Below, in pieces: positions 32,629-59,234 of a DNA stretch of 64,000 nt. The notes beneath the pieces are model-generated. The model was not told where the DNA came from and did no database searches. It worked only from the letters and a program-made list of their open reading frames with translations. The translations under genes were made by a program, and so were the position numbers. This DNA comes from Christiangramia salexigens (lineage in GTDB: Bacteria; Bacteroidota; Bacteroidia; Flavobacteriales; Flavobacteriaceae), in NCBI RefSeq assembly GCF_001889005.1, contig NZ_CP018153.1, positions 1,274,501 to 1,338,500 on the forward strand. Reading direction: 5' to 3'. The stretch's first letter is position 1. Every line of letters starts with the position of its first letter.

Positions 32629-32671
32629 GTCGTTTTGTCTTTTATTTTTCAATAAAAACCGTCAAATTGTC
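32629..32671 (+). promoter_or_regulatory. Two GWC-N5-GWC sites upstream of clpB
   Basis: GTCGTTTTGTC (32629-32639) and GTCAAATTGTC (32661-32671) lie exactly 32 bp apart, about three helical turns. The same pair at the same spacing stands before hsp20. They are candidate activator or repressor sites for a shared heat-shock regulator. Confidence 0.55.
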
Positions 32672-32683
32672 GGGTTCTTTCAA

Positions 32684-32698
32684 TGGTATGTTAATTGC
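32684..32698 (+). promoter_or_regulatory. Sigma-54-like -24/-12 promoter of clpB
   Basis: TGGTATG-TTAA-TTGC matches TGGYRYRN4TTGC in every specified base, with GG and GC ten bases apart as sigma-54 requires. The expected start of transcription is about 32710, 15 bases before the clpB ATG. No TAnnTTTG box is seen here. Confidence 0.6.
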
Positions 32699-32724: not shown

Positions 32725-35331
32725 ATGAATTTCAATAATTTCACAATAAAATCACAAGAGGCTATCCAGCAGGCTCAGCAGCTTGCTCAGGAAATGGGCC
32801 ATCAGCAAATAGAGAATGAGCATATTTTTAAAGCCATCATGATGGTTGATGAGAATGCAACGCCTTTTCTATTAAAAAAACTGAATATCAATGTTAAGTT
32901 GTTCTCTCAGATCCTTGATAAAAGCCTCGAAAGCTTTGCCAAAGTAAGCGGTGGAGATATCATGCTTTCCAGAGAGGCGAGCAAAACGGTTAACGAAGCC
33001 TCAAGCATCGCTAAAAAAATGAAGGATGAGTATGTCTCTATTGAACATCTTATTCTGGCTATTTTTAAGTCCTCGAGTAAAGTAGCTCAGATCCTGAAAG
33101 ATCAGGGCGCTACAGAAAAAGGTCTTAAAGCGGCTATCTCAGAGCTAAGACAGGGCGACCGGGTAACTTCACAAAGTGCAGAAGAAACTTATAACTCTCT
33201 TGATAAATACGCGAGAAACCTTAATCAGCTGGCTAAAGACGGAAAACTTGATCCTGTTATTGGGCGGGATGAAGAGATAAGACGAATTCTTCAAATACTT
33301 TCAAGAAGGACCAAGAACAACCCGATGCTTGTAGGGGAACCGGGTACGGGAAAAACTGCTATAGCAGAAGGTTTGGCTCATAGAATAGTAGATGGTGATA
33401 TCCCGGAAAACTTAAGAGATAAGCGAATATATTCTCTCGATATGGGGGCGCTGATCGCCGGAGCTAAATATAAAGGAGAGTTTGAAGAACGTCTAAAAGC
33501 GGTTATTAAAGAAGTTACTTCCAGTGACGGTAATATCGTATTATTTATAGACGAAATACATACGCTCGTAGGAGCCGGAGGAGGTCAGGGCGCCATAGAT
33601 GCGGCTAATATTTTAAAGCCGGCATTGGCTCGTGGGGAACTTAGAGCGATTGGTGCTACTACCCTGGATGAATATCAAAAGTACTTTGAAAAGGATAAAG
33701 CCCTAGAGCGAAGATTCCAGAAAGTTATAGTAGAAGAACCAGATACCGAAAGTGCGATCTCAATTTTGAGAGGGATAAAGGAAAAATATGAAACCCATCA
33801 TAAGGTGCGAATCAAAGATGAAGCGATCATCGCGGCCGTTGAATTGTCACAGCGCTATATCACCAACAGGTTTTTACCGGATAAGGCGATAGACCTTATG
33901 GATGAGGCTGCGTCTAAACTTCGCATGGAGATCAATTCAAAACCTGAAGAGTTAGATGTTCTGGATAGAAAGATCATGCAGCTTGAGATCGAAATCGAAG
34001 CTATTAAACGGGAAAAAGATGAAATAAAACTTAAGGCATTAAGGGCAGATCTCGCAAATTTAAAAGAAGAAAGAAATGATCTTCATGCAAGATGGATGGG
34101 TGAAAAAGAGATCGTGGACAAAATTCAGAATACTAAATCTGATATAGATAACTATAAACTTGAGGCAGAACGCGCAGAACGTGAAGGAGATTATGGAAAA
34201 GTTGCCGAAATAAGATACGGGAAGATCAAGGAAGCCCAGGAAAAACTGGAAAAGCTTCAGGAGAAAGTAGCCGAAAACCAGGATGAAAAATCACTCATCC
34301 AGGAAGAAGTTACAAATGAAGACATAGCCGAAGTAGTAGCAAAATGGACCGGAATCCCTGTAACTAAGATGCTTCAAAGCGAGCGGGAAAAATTGCTGAG
34401 TCTTGAAGATGACCTTCATAAAAGAGTAGTTGGCCAGGATGAGGCCATCATAGCGGTAAGTGATGCAGTGCGAAGAAGTCGCGCCGGTTTACAGGACCAG
34501 AATAGACCTATAGGATCTTTCTTATTCCTTGGAACCACTGGGGTTGGTAAGACAGAACTCGCAAAGGCTCTGGCAGAATACCTTTTTGATGATGAGGCGG
34601 CGATGACACGAATTGATATGAGCGAATATCAGGAAAGACATGCCGTGAGTAGATTAGTGGGTGCACCTCCGGGATACGTGGGATATGATGAAGGCGGACA
34701 ATTGACTGAAGCGGTAAGAAGAAAGCCATATTCTGTAATCCTGCTGGATGAAATTGAAAAAGCACATCCGGATACCTTCAACATTCTGTTACAGGTATTG
34801 GATGAAGGGCGTTTAACCGACAATAAAGGTCGTCTGGCTGACTTTAAGAACACCATTATTATCATGACCTCAAATATGGGTAGTGATATTATTCAGGAAA
34901 AGTTTGAAAATATCAAAGACCTGGATACCGCAATGGAAACGGCCAAAACTGAAGTTCTTGGAGTACTCAAACAGAATGTTCGTCCAGAGTTTATTAACCG
35001 AATCGATGATATTGTTATGTTCCGTCCGTTAACCCAGCAGGATATTAATAAGATCGTAGCTCTGCAGTTAAAAGGTGTGAAGAAAATGCTGGCTAAGCAA
35101 AATATCGTACTAGATGCCACAGAAGAGGCTGTAAAATATTTGGCTGCAAGAGGGTTTGATCCACAATACGGGGCCAGACCGGTTAAGCGGGTAGTTCAAA
35201 AAGAAGTTTTAAATAAACTATCCAAGGAAATACTTGGTGGAAAGATCACAACGGAAAGTATTATTCTTTTGGATGAATTTAATGATGAACTTGTCTTTAG
35301 AAATCAGGAGGAACTGGCAAGTAAAAATTGA
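32725..35331 (+). CDS. clpB: ATP-dependent disaggregase ClpB
   Basis: Hexameric AAA+ chaperone that, with DnaK, pulls proteins out of aggregates. The 868-residue protein has the double Clp-N domain (1-145), NBD1 with Walker A GEPGTGKTAIAEGL and Walker B LFIDEIHTLVGAGG, the coiled-coil M domain (about 400-530, charged heptads such as LEIEIEAIKREKDEIKLKAL), NBD2 with GTTGVGKTELAKAL and VILLDEIEKAHPD, and the C-terminal D2 small domain. Length and order are standard. It stands alone between a sigma-54-like promoter and a terminator. Confidence 0.98.
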   Translation: MNFNNFTIKSQEAIQQAQQLAQEMGHQQIENEHIFKAIMMVDENATPFLLKKLNINVKLFSQILDKSLESFAKVSGGDIMLSREASKTVNEASSIAKKMKDEYVSIEHLILAIFKSSSKVAQILKDQGATEKGLKAAISELRQGDRVTSQSAEETYNSLDKYARNLNQLAKDGKLDPVIGRDEEIRRILQILSRRTKNNPMLVGEPGTGKTAIAEGLAHRIVDGDIPENLRDKRIYSLDMGALIAGAKYKGEFEERLKAVIKEVTSSDGNIVLFIDEIHTLVGAGGGQGAIDAANILKPALARGELRAIGATTLDEYQKYFEKDKALERRFQKVIVEEPDTESAISILRGIKEKYETHHKVRIKDEAIIAAVELSQRYITNRFLPDKAIDLMDEAASKLRMEINSKPEELDVLDRKIMQLEIEIEAIKREKDEIKLKALRADLANLKEERNDLHARWMGEKEIVDKIQNTKSDIDNYKLEAERAEREGDYGKVAEIRYGKIKEAQEKLEKLQEKVAENQDEKSLIQEEVTNEDIAEVVAKWTGIPVTKMLQSEREKLLSLEDDLHKRVVGQDEAIIAVSDAVRRSRAGLQDQNRPIGSFLFLGTTGVGKTELAKALAEYLFDDEAAMTRIDMSEYQERHAVSRLVGAPPGYVGYDEGGQLTEAVRRKPYSVILLDEIEKAHPDTFNILLQVLDEGRLTDNKGRLADFKNTIIIMTSNMGSDIIQEKFENIKDLDTAMETAKTEVLGVLKQNVRPEFINRIDDIVMFRPLTQQDINKIVALQLKGVKKMLAKQNIVLDATEEAVKYLAARGFDPQYGARPVKRVVQKEVLNKLSKEILGGKITTESIILLDEFNDELVFRNQEELASKN

Positions 35332-57309: not shown

Positions 57310-57753
57310 TTAAGAGATCTCTATAAGTCTCTTAGACTGTACCTTCGCTTCTTCTTTCTTCGGAAGCGAAATCTCTAACACTCCATTTTTATATGAAGCT
57401 GAAATTTTAGTGGTCTCCACAGATTCAGGCAAACTAAAAGCACGCTTAAAACTGCTATAACTAAATTCTCTTCGCGTAAATCTTCCCTTTTCATCGGTAG
57501 ATTCATTTTCCTTTTTAGATTCAGATGAGATAGTGAGAACATCATTATCCAGCTCTATATTAAAATCCTCTTTTGCTTTGCCTGGTGCGGCAACTTCTAC
57601 ATTAAAACCTTCGTCGGTTTCTTTAATGTTCACAGCAGGAATACTGGTTCCTATAGTGTTTACATTTGTAGTTCCTCCCATCCAGTCGGTTTTAAACATA
57701 TCATCGAAAACCGATGGCAACCAATTTTTTTCATTGCTTTTAATTAAACTCAT
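57310..57753 (-). CDS. Small heat shock protein, Hsp20/alpha-crystallin
   Basis: A 147-residue chaperone that holds unfolding proteins. N-terminal stretch MSLIKSNEKNWLPSVFDDMF is typical of the bacterial class; the alpha-crystallin domain (about 45-135) has VNIKETDEGFNVEVAAPGKA, EDFNIELDNDVLTISSE and YKNGVLEISLPK (the GVL motif); the tail KVQSKRLIEIS bears the I-x-I anchor. Single gene. Its promoter region shares a sigma-54-like element and a pair of GWC-N5-GWC sites with clpB. Confidence 0.96.
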   Translation of the reverse strand: MSLIKSNEKNWLPSVFDDMFKTDWMGGTTNVNTIGTSIPAVNIKETDEGFNVEVAAPGKAKEDFNIELDNDVLTISSESKKENESTDEKGRFTRREFSYSSFKRAFSLPESVETTKISASYKNGVLEISLPKKEEAKVQSKRLIEIS

Positions 57754-57802: not shown

Positions 57803-57817
57803 GCAAATTAGGAACCA
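57803..57817 (-). promoter_or_regulatory. Sigma-54-like -24/-12 promoter of hsp20
   Basis: Minus-strand TGGTTCC-TAAT-TTGC (followed by T) keeps the essential GG and GC ten bases apart and the TTGCW end; two inner bases of TGGYRYR differ. The expected start is about 57791, some 38 bases before the ATG. Confidence 0.5.
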
Positions 57818-57830
57818 ATCGAAAAAACAT

Positions 57831-57873
57831 GACTTTTTGTCGCGTTTTAATTTATTTTAAATGTCATCTTGTC
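57831..57873 (-). promoter_or_regulatory. Two GWC-N5-GWC sites upstream of hsp20
   Basis: On the coding strand GACAAGATGAC (57873-57863, distal) and GACAAAAAGTC (57841-57831, proximal) lie 32 bp apart, the same distance as in the clpB promoter. The proximal copy ends 13 bases before the -24 box (12 in clpB). Confidence 0.55.
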
Positions 57874-57944
57874 ATTTTGGTAAATCTTTATTAAAATCTT
57901 AGCTCTTTCCAAGGTTTGCTTAACTTTAACTGAAATCTAACCTG

Positions 57945-59234
57945 ATGAAACAAGTCTTTAACCGCACCATTTCGTTTTTTAATGTAATAGAGAGTAAAAT
58001 CGCATTCTACCCTACTCTATTGGCCTTAATGGGCTTCTGTTTTGCGGTTTTTATGTTATATCTGGAAAATCTGGGCATCTCCAGATACCTGGTAGAACAT
58101 TCGCCAATTCTGGTGGTAGACAATGGAGATACCGCTATGACGATCTTAAGCTCTCTAATATCCGGACTTATATCTGTAGTAGTTTTTAGCTTTTCCATGG
58201 TTATGCTTTTGCTTAGTCAGGCATCCAGCAACTATTCACCGAGATTATTACCAGGTCTGATAAGCGACAGGCGTCACCAGATCATTTTAGGAGTTTACCT
58301 TTTCACGATACTCTACTGTATTTTTATTCTTTTTTCCATTCAGCCCACAGGAGATAAATATCAGATTCCGGGATTCTCGGTTCTTATCGGAATATTAGAA
58401 ACCGTTTTTTGCATCTATGCTTTTATCTATTTTATTCATAATATCTCTCAAAGCATACAGATCAGCAATATCCTTCAAGGTATTTATAAAACAGCCAAGC
58501 TAAGATTGAATGATCTGGTGGAAAAAGAAGAGGAAGAAGTCGAGGAGTTTCCGGATAGTTCTGACTGGTATGAATACCATTCAGAAAAAAGCGGTTATCT
58601 CCAGAATATCTCCTATCCTAACCTCGTGGATATTTGCAAGGAGCAAGAAAATTTACTACATATACTCCCTGTAAAAGGAATGTTCGTTCTTAATGGAATC
58701 CCTATTATTCGATCCAAAAAGGAACTTGATGAGATATCTGTAAAAAGAATATTGTCAAATTTCAATTTTGCGAGAGAAGAGCTGGTTTCAGATAACTATG
58801 TCCTGGCTTTTAAACAGATCACAGAGATCATTGTAAAGGCTATGTCCCCGGGAATTAATGATCCGGGCACGGCAATTAATGGTATTGATTATTTAACCGA
58901 ACTTCTAGCCATCAGAATGAAAAAAAAGGATTCCAATAGAATTACAAAGGACGGCCATGTATTTATTAAAATTAATACTATTAGCTTTGGCGATCTGCTT
59001 TTCAATATAATGGCGAGCATAAGAACATACAGTAAACACGATATTATTCTGGTTCAAAAATTACTTTTGATGTTTCATTATTTGAAGAAACAACGTTCTC
59101 ATAATAATTCCTATTATGATAATATAGATCAGGAAGCAGCGAATTTATTACGTGATGCTGAAGATGCAATAACCAATAAGAAGGATTTTGAAAGGGCGAA
59201 AAACCTCGCAATTAAACTAAAATTAAATTTCTAA
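57945..59234 (+). CDS. DUF2254 membrane protein
   Basis: A 429-residue protein of the DUF2254 family. Four hydrophobic segments lie in the first 180 residues (LALMGFCFAVFMLYLENLG, ILSSLISGLISVVVFSFSMV, ILGVYLFTILYCIFILFSI, GILETVFCIYAFIYFIHNI); the rest is soluble and contains the signature AMSPGINDPGTAINGIDYL (about 303-321). Conserved but uncharacterised; likely an inner-membrane protein. The DUF1456 gene follows 15 bases later. Confidence 0.87.
   Translation: MKQVFNRTISFFNVIESKIAFYPTLLALMGFCFAVFMLYLENLGISRYLVEHSPILVVDNGDTAMTILSSLISGLISVVVFSFSMVMLLLSQASSNYSPRLLPGLISDRRHQIILGVYLFTILYCIFILFSIQPTGDKYQIPGFSVLIGILETVFCIYAFIYFIHNISQSIQISNILQGIYKTAKLRLNDLVEKEEEEVEEFPDSSDWYEYHSEKSGYLQNISYPNLVDICKEQENLLHILPVKGMFVLNGIPIIRSKKELDEISVKRILSNFNFAREELVSDNYVLAFKQITEIIVKAMSPGINDPGTAINGIDYLTELLAIRMKKKDSNRITKDGHVFIKINTISFGDLLFNIMASIRTYSKHDIILVQKLLLMFHYLKKQRSHNNSYYDNIDQEAANLLRDAEDAITNKKDFERAKNLAIKLKLNF

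Follow-up and report, generated by a model that had tools for sequence, protein, structure and literature searches.

The genes hsp20 and clpB of Christiangramia salexigens very probably belong to one chaperone regulon, which also takes in dnaK, grpE-dnaJ, htpG and, more weakly, groES-groEL, and which would be transcribed with sigma-54 and activated by an enhancer-binding protein (EBP), here called EBP2, through predicted operators set in phase with the DNA helix. Membership in this regulon would explain why both genes carry the same sites upstream of a sigma-54 promoter. The preliminary description of this DNA had already proposed a single regulon with a dedicated EBP, and this proposal is now supported by comparative evidence: the operators, their boxes, their phasing and conservation, the fact that operators, rpoN and EBP2 are missing together, and 13 genomes in which EBP2, the candidate gene, encodes the sole EBP. 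Both hsp20 and clpB lie in the window, by which we mean the whole stretch of 64,000 nucleotides that was analysed (contig NZ_CP018153.1, positions 1,274,501 to 1,338,500).

The hsp20 and clpB promoters

Upstream of both genes lies the GG-N10-GC pair (-24/-12) of a sigma-54-dependent promoter, preceded by two sites of 11 bp (Table 1). The preliminary description had stated that the two sites are 32 bp apart at hsp20 as they are at clpB, and the rechecked coordinates give a spacing of 32 in both. Its figure of 13 bp between the hsp20 sites and the -24 element is correct with the T of TGG as end point; with the GG as end point the distance is 14 nt, one base more than the 13 nt found at clpB. The full composite of two sites and a box occurs at two places in the window, exactly hsp20 and clpB, and 60 dinucleotide-preserving shuffles produced no example; a single site with a box is also found twice, where the shuffles average 0.15. 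Divergent from hsp20 lies a gene (57945-59234) for a DUF2254 membrane protein, and the intergenic gap between the two holds both hsp20 operators.

From the pooled sites and from the cleaner sites of other genes, the operator is best written TGWCA-N3-TGWCA, a consensus to which the clpB sites show more mismatches. An exact TGWCANNNTGWCA is present at 57862-57874 in the plus-strand reading; this is the distal hsp20 site, and it is the sole match in the window at one mismatch or fewer. Such matches are scarcer in the window than shuffles lead one to expect (1 versus 6.0), as if stray operators were avoided.

Table 1. Positions of the genes, sigma-54 boxes and predicted operators discussed in the text
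Feature	Position	Strand	Basis or remark
hsp20 (small heat-shock protein, 147 aa)	57310..57753	minus	Pfam HSP20 PF00011, E 1.7e-24
hsp20 sigma-54 -24/-12 box TGGTTCCTAATTTGC	57803..57817	minus	sequence, genus alignment
hsp20 proximal operator (predicted) GACAAAAAGTC	57831..57841	minus	14 nt from GG
hsp20 distal operator (predicted) GACAAGATGAC	57863..57873	minus	32 bp upstream of proximal
clpB	32725..35331	plus	NCBIfam TIGR03346, 1303 bits, above cut-off
clpB sigma-54 -24/-12 box TGGTATGTTAATTGC	32684..32698	plus	sequence, genus alignment
clpB proximal operator (predicted) GTCAAATTGTC	32661..32671	plus	13 nt from GG
clpB distal operator (predicted) GTCGTTTTGTC	32629..32639	plus	sequence, genus promoters
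EBP2	C1:2032780-2034042 (L013:2781-4043)		after miaB, before LptE-like, TPR-like, secG, groES

Conservation of the double site

The search for relatives covered 39 genomes: besides the organism's own, 23 belong to its genus and 15 to other families of the order. At clpB both sites and the box are present in all 24 genus genomes, with a spacing of 32 in 21 and of 33 in three. At hsp20 the sites and box are found at spacing 32 in 23 of 23 genus orthologues, 20 of them by script and three by eye; among the latter, L066 is intact and L055 and L067 each have one half-site changed. In these genus promoters the distance to the -24 GG is 14 or 13 nt. No hsp20 orthologue was counted in G010 (73% complete) because the best match there is just 41% identical. 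The sigma-54 boxes are retained across the genus with GC or GA/GT at -12. The preliminary description had considered that hsp20 orthologues might lose the spacing and the GG-N10-GC pair; within the genus, both the spacing and the GG-N10-G pair are retained. Alignment A1 holds 41 of the 45 clpB and hsp20 promoters found, those left out being L017, L020 and L022, with a spacing of 33, and L068, which is from another family.

Inspection by eye of clpB in other families showed site-like sequences whose spacing differs, as in L041 (about 41 bp) and L039 (20 bp), and no such site pair at clpB of L040 and L044. An exact 32-bp spacing as the rule is ruled out by the 33 bp at clpB of three species and by the phased distances of other genes.

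Other genes of the regulon

Sigma-54 boxes with an operator upstream are found also at htpG, dnaK and grpE-dnaJ, and more weakly at groES. At htpG and dnaK the operator lies 14 nt from the GG in seven of the seven genus genomes examined for each. In other families of the order, an operator with one mismatch or fewer is present within 110 nt of a box at htpG in 7/11, at dnaK in 12/15 and at groES in 6/14, the last count including one 8-nt case (G026) that is apparently spurious.

The preliminary description had allowed that a genome-wide scan might find the composite pattern at random frequency. We scanned the organism's own genome with a profile (R2) made from clpB, hsp20, htpG and dnaK promoters; of 31 promoters found, 30 are in alignment A3, grpE being left out as a test. 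The four chaperone genes used in training came first (dnaK, htpG, clpB and hsp20, E 2.6e-7 to 1e-4), followed in fifth place by grpE-dnaJ, from outside the training set, at E 0.12, and then by seven weaker partial matches, the last of which is groES at E 4.9. An earlier profile made from clpB and hsp20 only (R1) returned htpG (E 2e-4), an implausible place in L080 (E 0.0011), grpE (E 1.25) and a further seven weak matches; dnaK and groES were not among its matches in this genome. The L080 match lies in a terminator-like stretch from which no gene runs outward on that strand; it was taken as chance, as were the other non-chaperone matches (E 0.09 or worse with R1, and six partial matches at E 0.6-3.3 with R2).

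As a perfect member of the regulon in the genus, groES was rejected. Its site, TGACAAGCTGGCA, is weak (8.5 bits), lies 34 nt from the GG and falls inside a terminator-like hairpin of secG; it is retained in 7/7 genus members. The hairpin of which TGACAAGCTGGCA is a part, in the secG-groES gap (L013:960-1035), is strong (-22 kcal/mol, z -5.8), and operator-in-hairpin sequences like that of groES were seen by eye in L219 and L224 as well. At lon in the genus (L190-L196) the sigma-54 box is conserved and a standard operator is lacking upstream of it; the upstream element there is a different, TTGTTACA-like one, and a conserved GACAGTTTGAC begins 24-25 nt before the ATG in 7/7 genus members. The second hsp20 of the genome (C1:287082) has, by eye, neither operator nor sigma-54 box.

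The wider phylum and HrcA

Over the phylum, dnaK was found in 40 of 41 genomes, and 30 loci were taken, of which 29 were examined (no start was found in L392). An operator is present upstream of dnaK in 10 of these 29, with a box in range in eight. For groES, 19 of the 80 best relatives mentioned below were viewed; with two in which none was found and a spurious match (L211) set aside, 16 were usable, and an operator with one mismatch or fewer is in range of a box in 8/16, one of the eight (Dyadobacter, 8 nt) having been measured to an apparently wrong box. At dnaK of G060, G065 and G085 the operators lie 14-15 nt from a box in upstream DNA with a GC content of 0.57-0.64. The motif is short and the DNA AT-rich, as one would want for a chance resemblance among AT-rich promoters; these three GC-rich upstream regions, the conservation across the genus and the lack of any composite in 60 shuffles make such a resemblance hardly credible.

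Elsewhere groESL and dnaK are controlled by HrcA/CIRCE and by sigma-32. Matches to HrcA numbered 0 in the organism's own genome (G000) and were found in 0/32 genomes of the order, which sets the present system apart from an HrcA/CIRCE regulon. In the wider phylum HrcA is present in 6/6 genomes chosen for carrying the operator, so that both systems coexist there, and 7/14 control genomes were positive.

Helical phase of the operators

We collected 58 operator-box pairs at groES, dnaK, htpG and clpB, 39 of them distinct by lineage, gene and distance, leaving out the symbionts without rpoN. The distances from operator to GG cluster at 14, 24-25, 34, 44-46, 65-69 and 76-79 nt; one or a few cases each fall at 8, 13, 15, 17, 53 and 87. 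Among nine periods tried, 10.5 bp gave the largest vector (R 0.77; this and the phase statistics that follow are inflated to some degree by relatedness). The 22 distinct distances above 20 nt gave R 0.76, a value reached by none of 20,000 uniform draws, and the 16 unique gene-by-distance values above 20 gave R 0.72 (p 1e-4). A held-out set of 14 values, taken from groES of named species and dnaK over the phylum, gave R 0.59 (p 0.005) and V 0.59 (p 7e-4), and its 10 values above 20 nt gave R 0.63 (p 0.016; V p 0.002); this set includes the dnaK of G027 (14), which is shared with the discovery set, and 14 recurs in other held-out genomes. When the boxes were shuffled among promoters, the observed value was reached in 0 of 5000 trials.

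As far as the sequences allow us to judge, the rule is one of helical phase, with distances of 14 plus multiples of 10.5, and not one of exact spacing. Phase-locking at 10.5 bp makes the 32-bp pair about three helical turns and would place the binder on one face of the helix relative to the promoter. It is also possible to imagine a repressor, or an accessory protein that bends the DNA, as the binder of the sites at sigma-54 chaperone promoters, with EBP2 making no specific DNA contact, and the position of the proximal site, 13-15 nt from the -24 box, is one where a repressor could block polymerase. We consider this very unlikely, since phase-locking out to 87 nt fits activator contact better, the HTH of EBP2 hardly varies, and the sites, EBP2 and rpoN are absent together from the symbionts described below.

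EBP2 and other enhancer-binding proteins

The organism's own genome encodes three strong PF00158 proteins, EBP1, EBP2 and EBP3; another eight proteins match only weakly (E 1e-8 or worse), the clpB region itself being among them. EBP1 has a receiver and an AAA+ domain, with no HTH found by Pfam (L012:3023-4189), and EBP3 has a receiver and an HTH. Likely orthologues of EBP1 are present in several other families, and not in the EBP2-only genomes. EBP2, of 420 aa, has an AAA+ domain and an HTH and no receiver. Its Sigma54_activat AAA+ domain (PF00158, 223 bits) contains the GAFTGA loop and places it among the NtrC-type EBPs, and its Fis-type HTH scores 47 bits against a cut-off of 22 (PF02954). 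The AAA+ match begins at residue 13 and Pfam gave no match to the N-terminal receiver expected of a two-component NtrC protein. A structure model of moderate confidence (pLDDT 71, pTM 0.46) has a long helix at 275-308 and 312-327, a disordered stretch at 328-376 and then the HTH, and no sensor domain is recognisable in either the domain search or the model.

PspF, the phage-shock activator, is an AAA+ activator of sigma-54 that lacks an N-terminal domain and carries a C-terminal HTH. EBP2 shares this architecture but differs in the long helix and disordered linker before its HTH, and it scores 266.5 bits against a cut-off of 443.55 with the PspF model (NCBIfam TIGR02974).

EBP2 is present in 15/15 other families of the order sampled, in 14 by BLAST and in G027 by architecture. 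Its HTH is nearly invariant. ISERTLYRK is identical in the 15 proteins aligned and present in 14/15 other families, and G027 has ISQRTLYRK. EBP2-like proteins are spread over Bacteroidota, and more distant ones are found in other phyla (among the best 80 of at least 587 confirmed relatives, 56 of the 80 having been viewed for context). Of the neighbours in Table 1, MiaB, SecG and GroES were named by NCBIfam and LptE and TPR by eye alone. Table 2 of a study of Flavobacterium psychrophilum (PMC9723704) lists a sigma-54 regulator and LptE (locus tags 0733-0732) close above groES (0729), and we take this regulator to be EBP2.

At the thresholds used, EBP2 is the single PF00158 protein in 13 genomes (G030, G033, G034 and ten symbionts), and in 12 of these, all except G044, one or more of groES, dnaK, htpG and clpB are preceded by an operator. 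Sigma-54 polymerase depends on an EBP, and in those 13 genomes EBP2 should therefore be the one that acts at the chaperone promoters. The same genomes argue against binding of the operator by the response regulator EBP3, an alternative that can be put together with the use of different activators for each chaperone gene. EBP3 does exist in the organism's own genome and has an HTH, and clpB belongs to a separate co-expression cluster in F. psychrophilum (PMC9723704); given the EBP2-only genomes, we regard this alternative as very unlikely and EBP2 as the better candidate.

Reduced insect-symbiont genomes

The symbiont family comprises 19 genomes, some of them incomplete, with rpoN in 10 and not found in nine. 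EBP2 is present in 10/10 of the rpoN-plus symbionts, and no EBP was found in 8/9 of the rpoN-minus ones; the ninth, G042, has a 280-aa open frame lacking the Walker A motif and the HTH that the other genomes' proteins have. Counting operators with one mismatch or fewer within 200 bp, we found one at groES in 7/10 genomes with rpoN and EBP2 versus 0/9 without, at dnaK likewise in 7/10 versus 0/9, at htpG in 3/8 rpoN-plus versus 0/5 rpoN-minus genomes and at clpB in 1/7 versus 0/2, counts that are not independent because of shared ancestry; shuffles predict 0.14 or fewer per class. The rpoN-plus G044 has no operator at the genes examined. With a looser weight matrix (7 bits), matches appear in two rpoN-minus genomes, at htpG of G048 (-146, 11.3 bits) and groES of G042 (-253, 9.7 bits). 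Sigma-54 boxes before groES and dnaK are, by eye, present in the rpoN-plus genomes, except at groES of G040, and missing in the rpoN-minus ones. Because upstream DNA is more AT-rich in the rpoN-minus group (GC 0.14 at groES and 0.11 at dnaK, versus 0.20 and 0.18), loss of the operator there may partly be drift. That Walczuchella monophlebidarum retains RpoN has been described as unusual, with nitrogen put forward as a tentative reason (PMC3971599); we think that control of chaperones explains rpoN retention in the symbionts better than nitrogen does.

Relation to published work

Sigma-54 promoters at flavobacterial chaperone genes are already in print (PMC9723704, PMC12316311). In F. psychrophilum, sigma-54 boxes lie at the mapped starts of groES, lon, dnaK, grpE, htpG and clpB, with clpB in co-expression cluster B415 and the other five in B254 (PMC9723704). 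These separate clusters speak against a single uniform regulon, and the study itself raises the possibility of distinct activators for such clusters (PMC9723704). Heat is not among the inducing conditions given, which are blood agar, high osmotic pressure, plasma and freshwater, and many genes outside the chaperone group are likewise served by sigma-54 promoters (PMC9723704). The SM4 (sigma-54) promoters of that study are like ours in their chaperone boxes, in the three PF00158 proteins and in the regulator with LptE near groES; they are unlike ours in that the portions of the paper drawn on here describe no operator, assign no activator and show a selection from which hsp20 is absent (PMC9723704). 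A survey of predicted sigma-54 regulons in 1,628 organisms reports enrichment of GroEL, IbpA, GroES, GrpE, DnaJ and DnaK, highest in Flavobacteriia, and describes the promoters of GrpE and GroES as sigma-54-dependent in species that it names (PMC12316311). It differs from the present analysis in working from promoter matrices, and EBP-promoter specificity was not available for all its organisms (PMC12316311). In a literature search outside which most subscription papers lay, none of the titles and abstract openings among the matches listed assigns an operator or activator.

A possible mechanism and its meaning

In the mechanism that we propose, RNA polymerase with sigma-54 would transcribe hsp20, clpB, dnaK, grpE-dnaJ, htpG and groES-groEL. 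EBP2 would bind TGWCA-N3-TGWCA operators that share one helical face, with a proximal operator 13-15 nt from the -24 GG and others about whole helical turns further upstream, and an EBP2 hexamer would then remodel the sigma-54 closed complex. The input could be heat or misfolded protein; the preliminary description had suggested that the EBP senses protein damage, though the candidate shows no recognisable sensor domain. As EBP2 has no sensor domain, it may be held off by a partner, for which DnaK or GroEL would be natural candidates because the symbionts have so few genes. Feedback loops are known for other heat-shock regulators, and an EBP2 held by DnaK or GroEL would give a similar loop. 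It is conceivable, though less likely than not, that this is a phylum-wide sigma-54 heat-shock system with one sensor-less activator, in which EBP2 is checked by free DnaK or GroEL and released when the chaperones are busy, and that rpoN has been kept on this account in some insect symbionts whose genomes measure about 0.3 Mb.

EBP2 is thus a testable candidate for the master regulator of the chaperone response in an order whose sampled genomes lack HrcA (0/32), and its likely DNA code and geometry are given here. The enhancer layout would be an unusual one, with the nearest site just 13-15 nt from the -24 box. The same regulator may offer a simple explanation for the retention of rpoN in minimal symbiont genomes.
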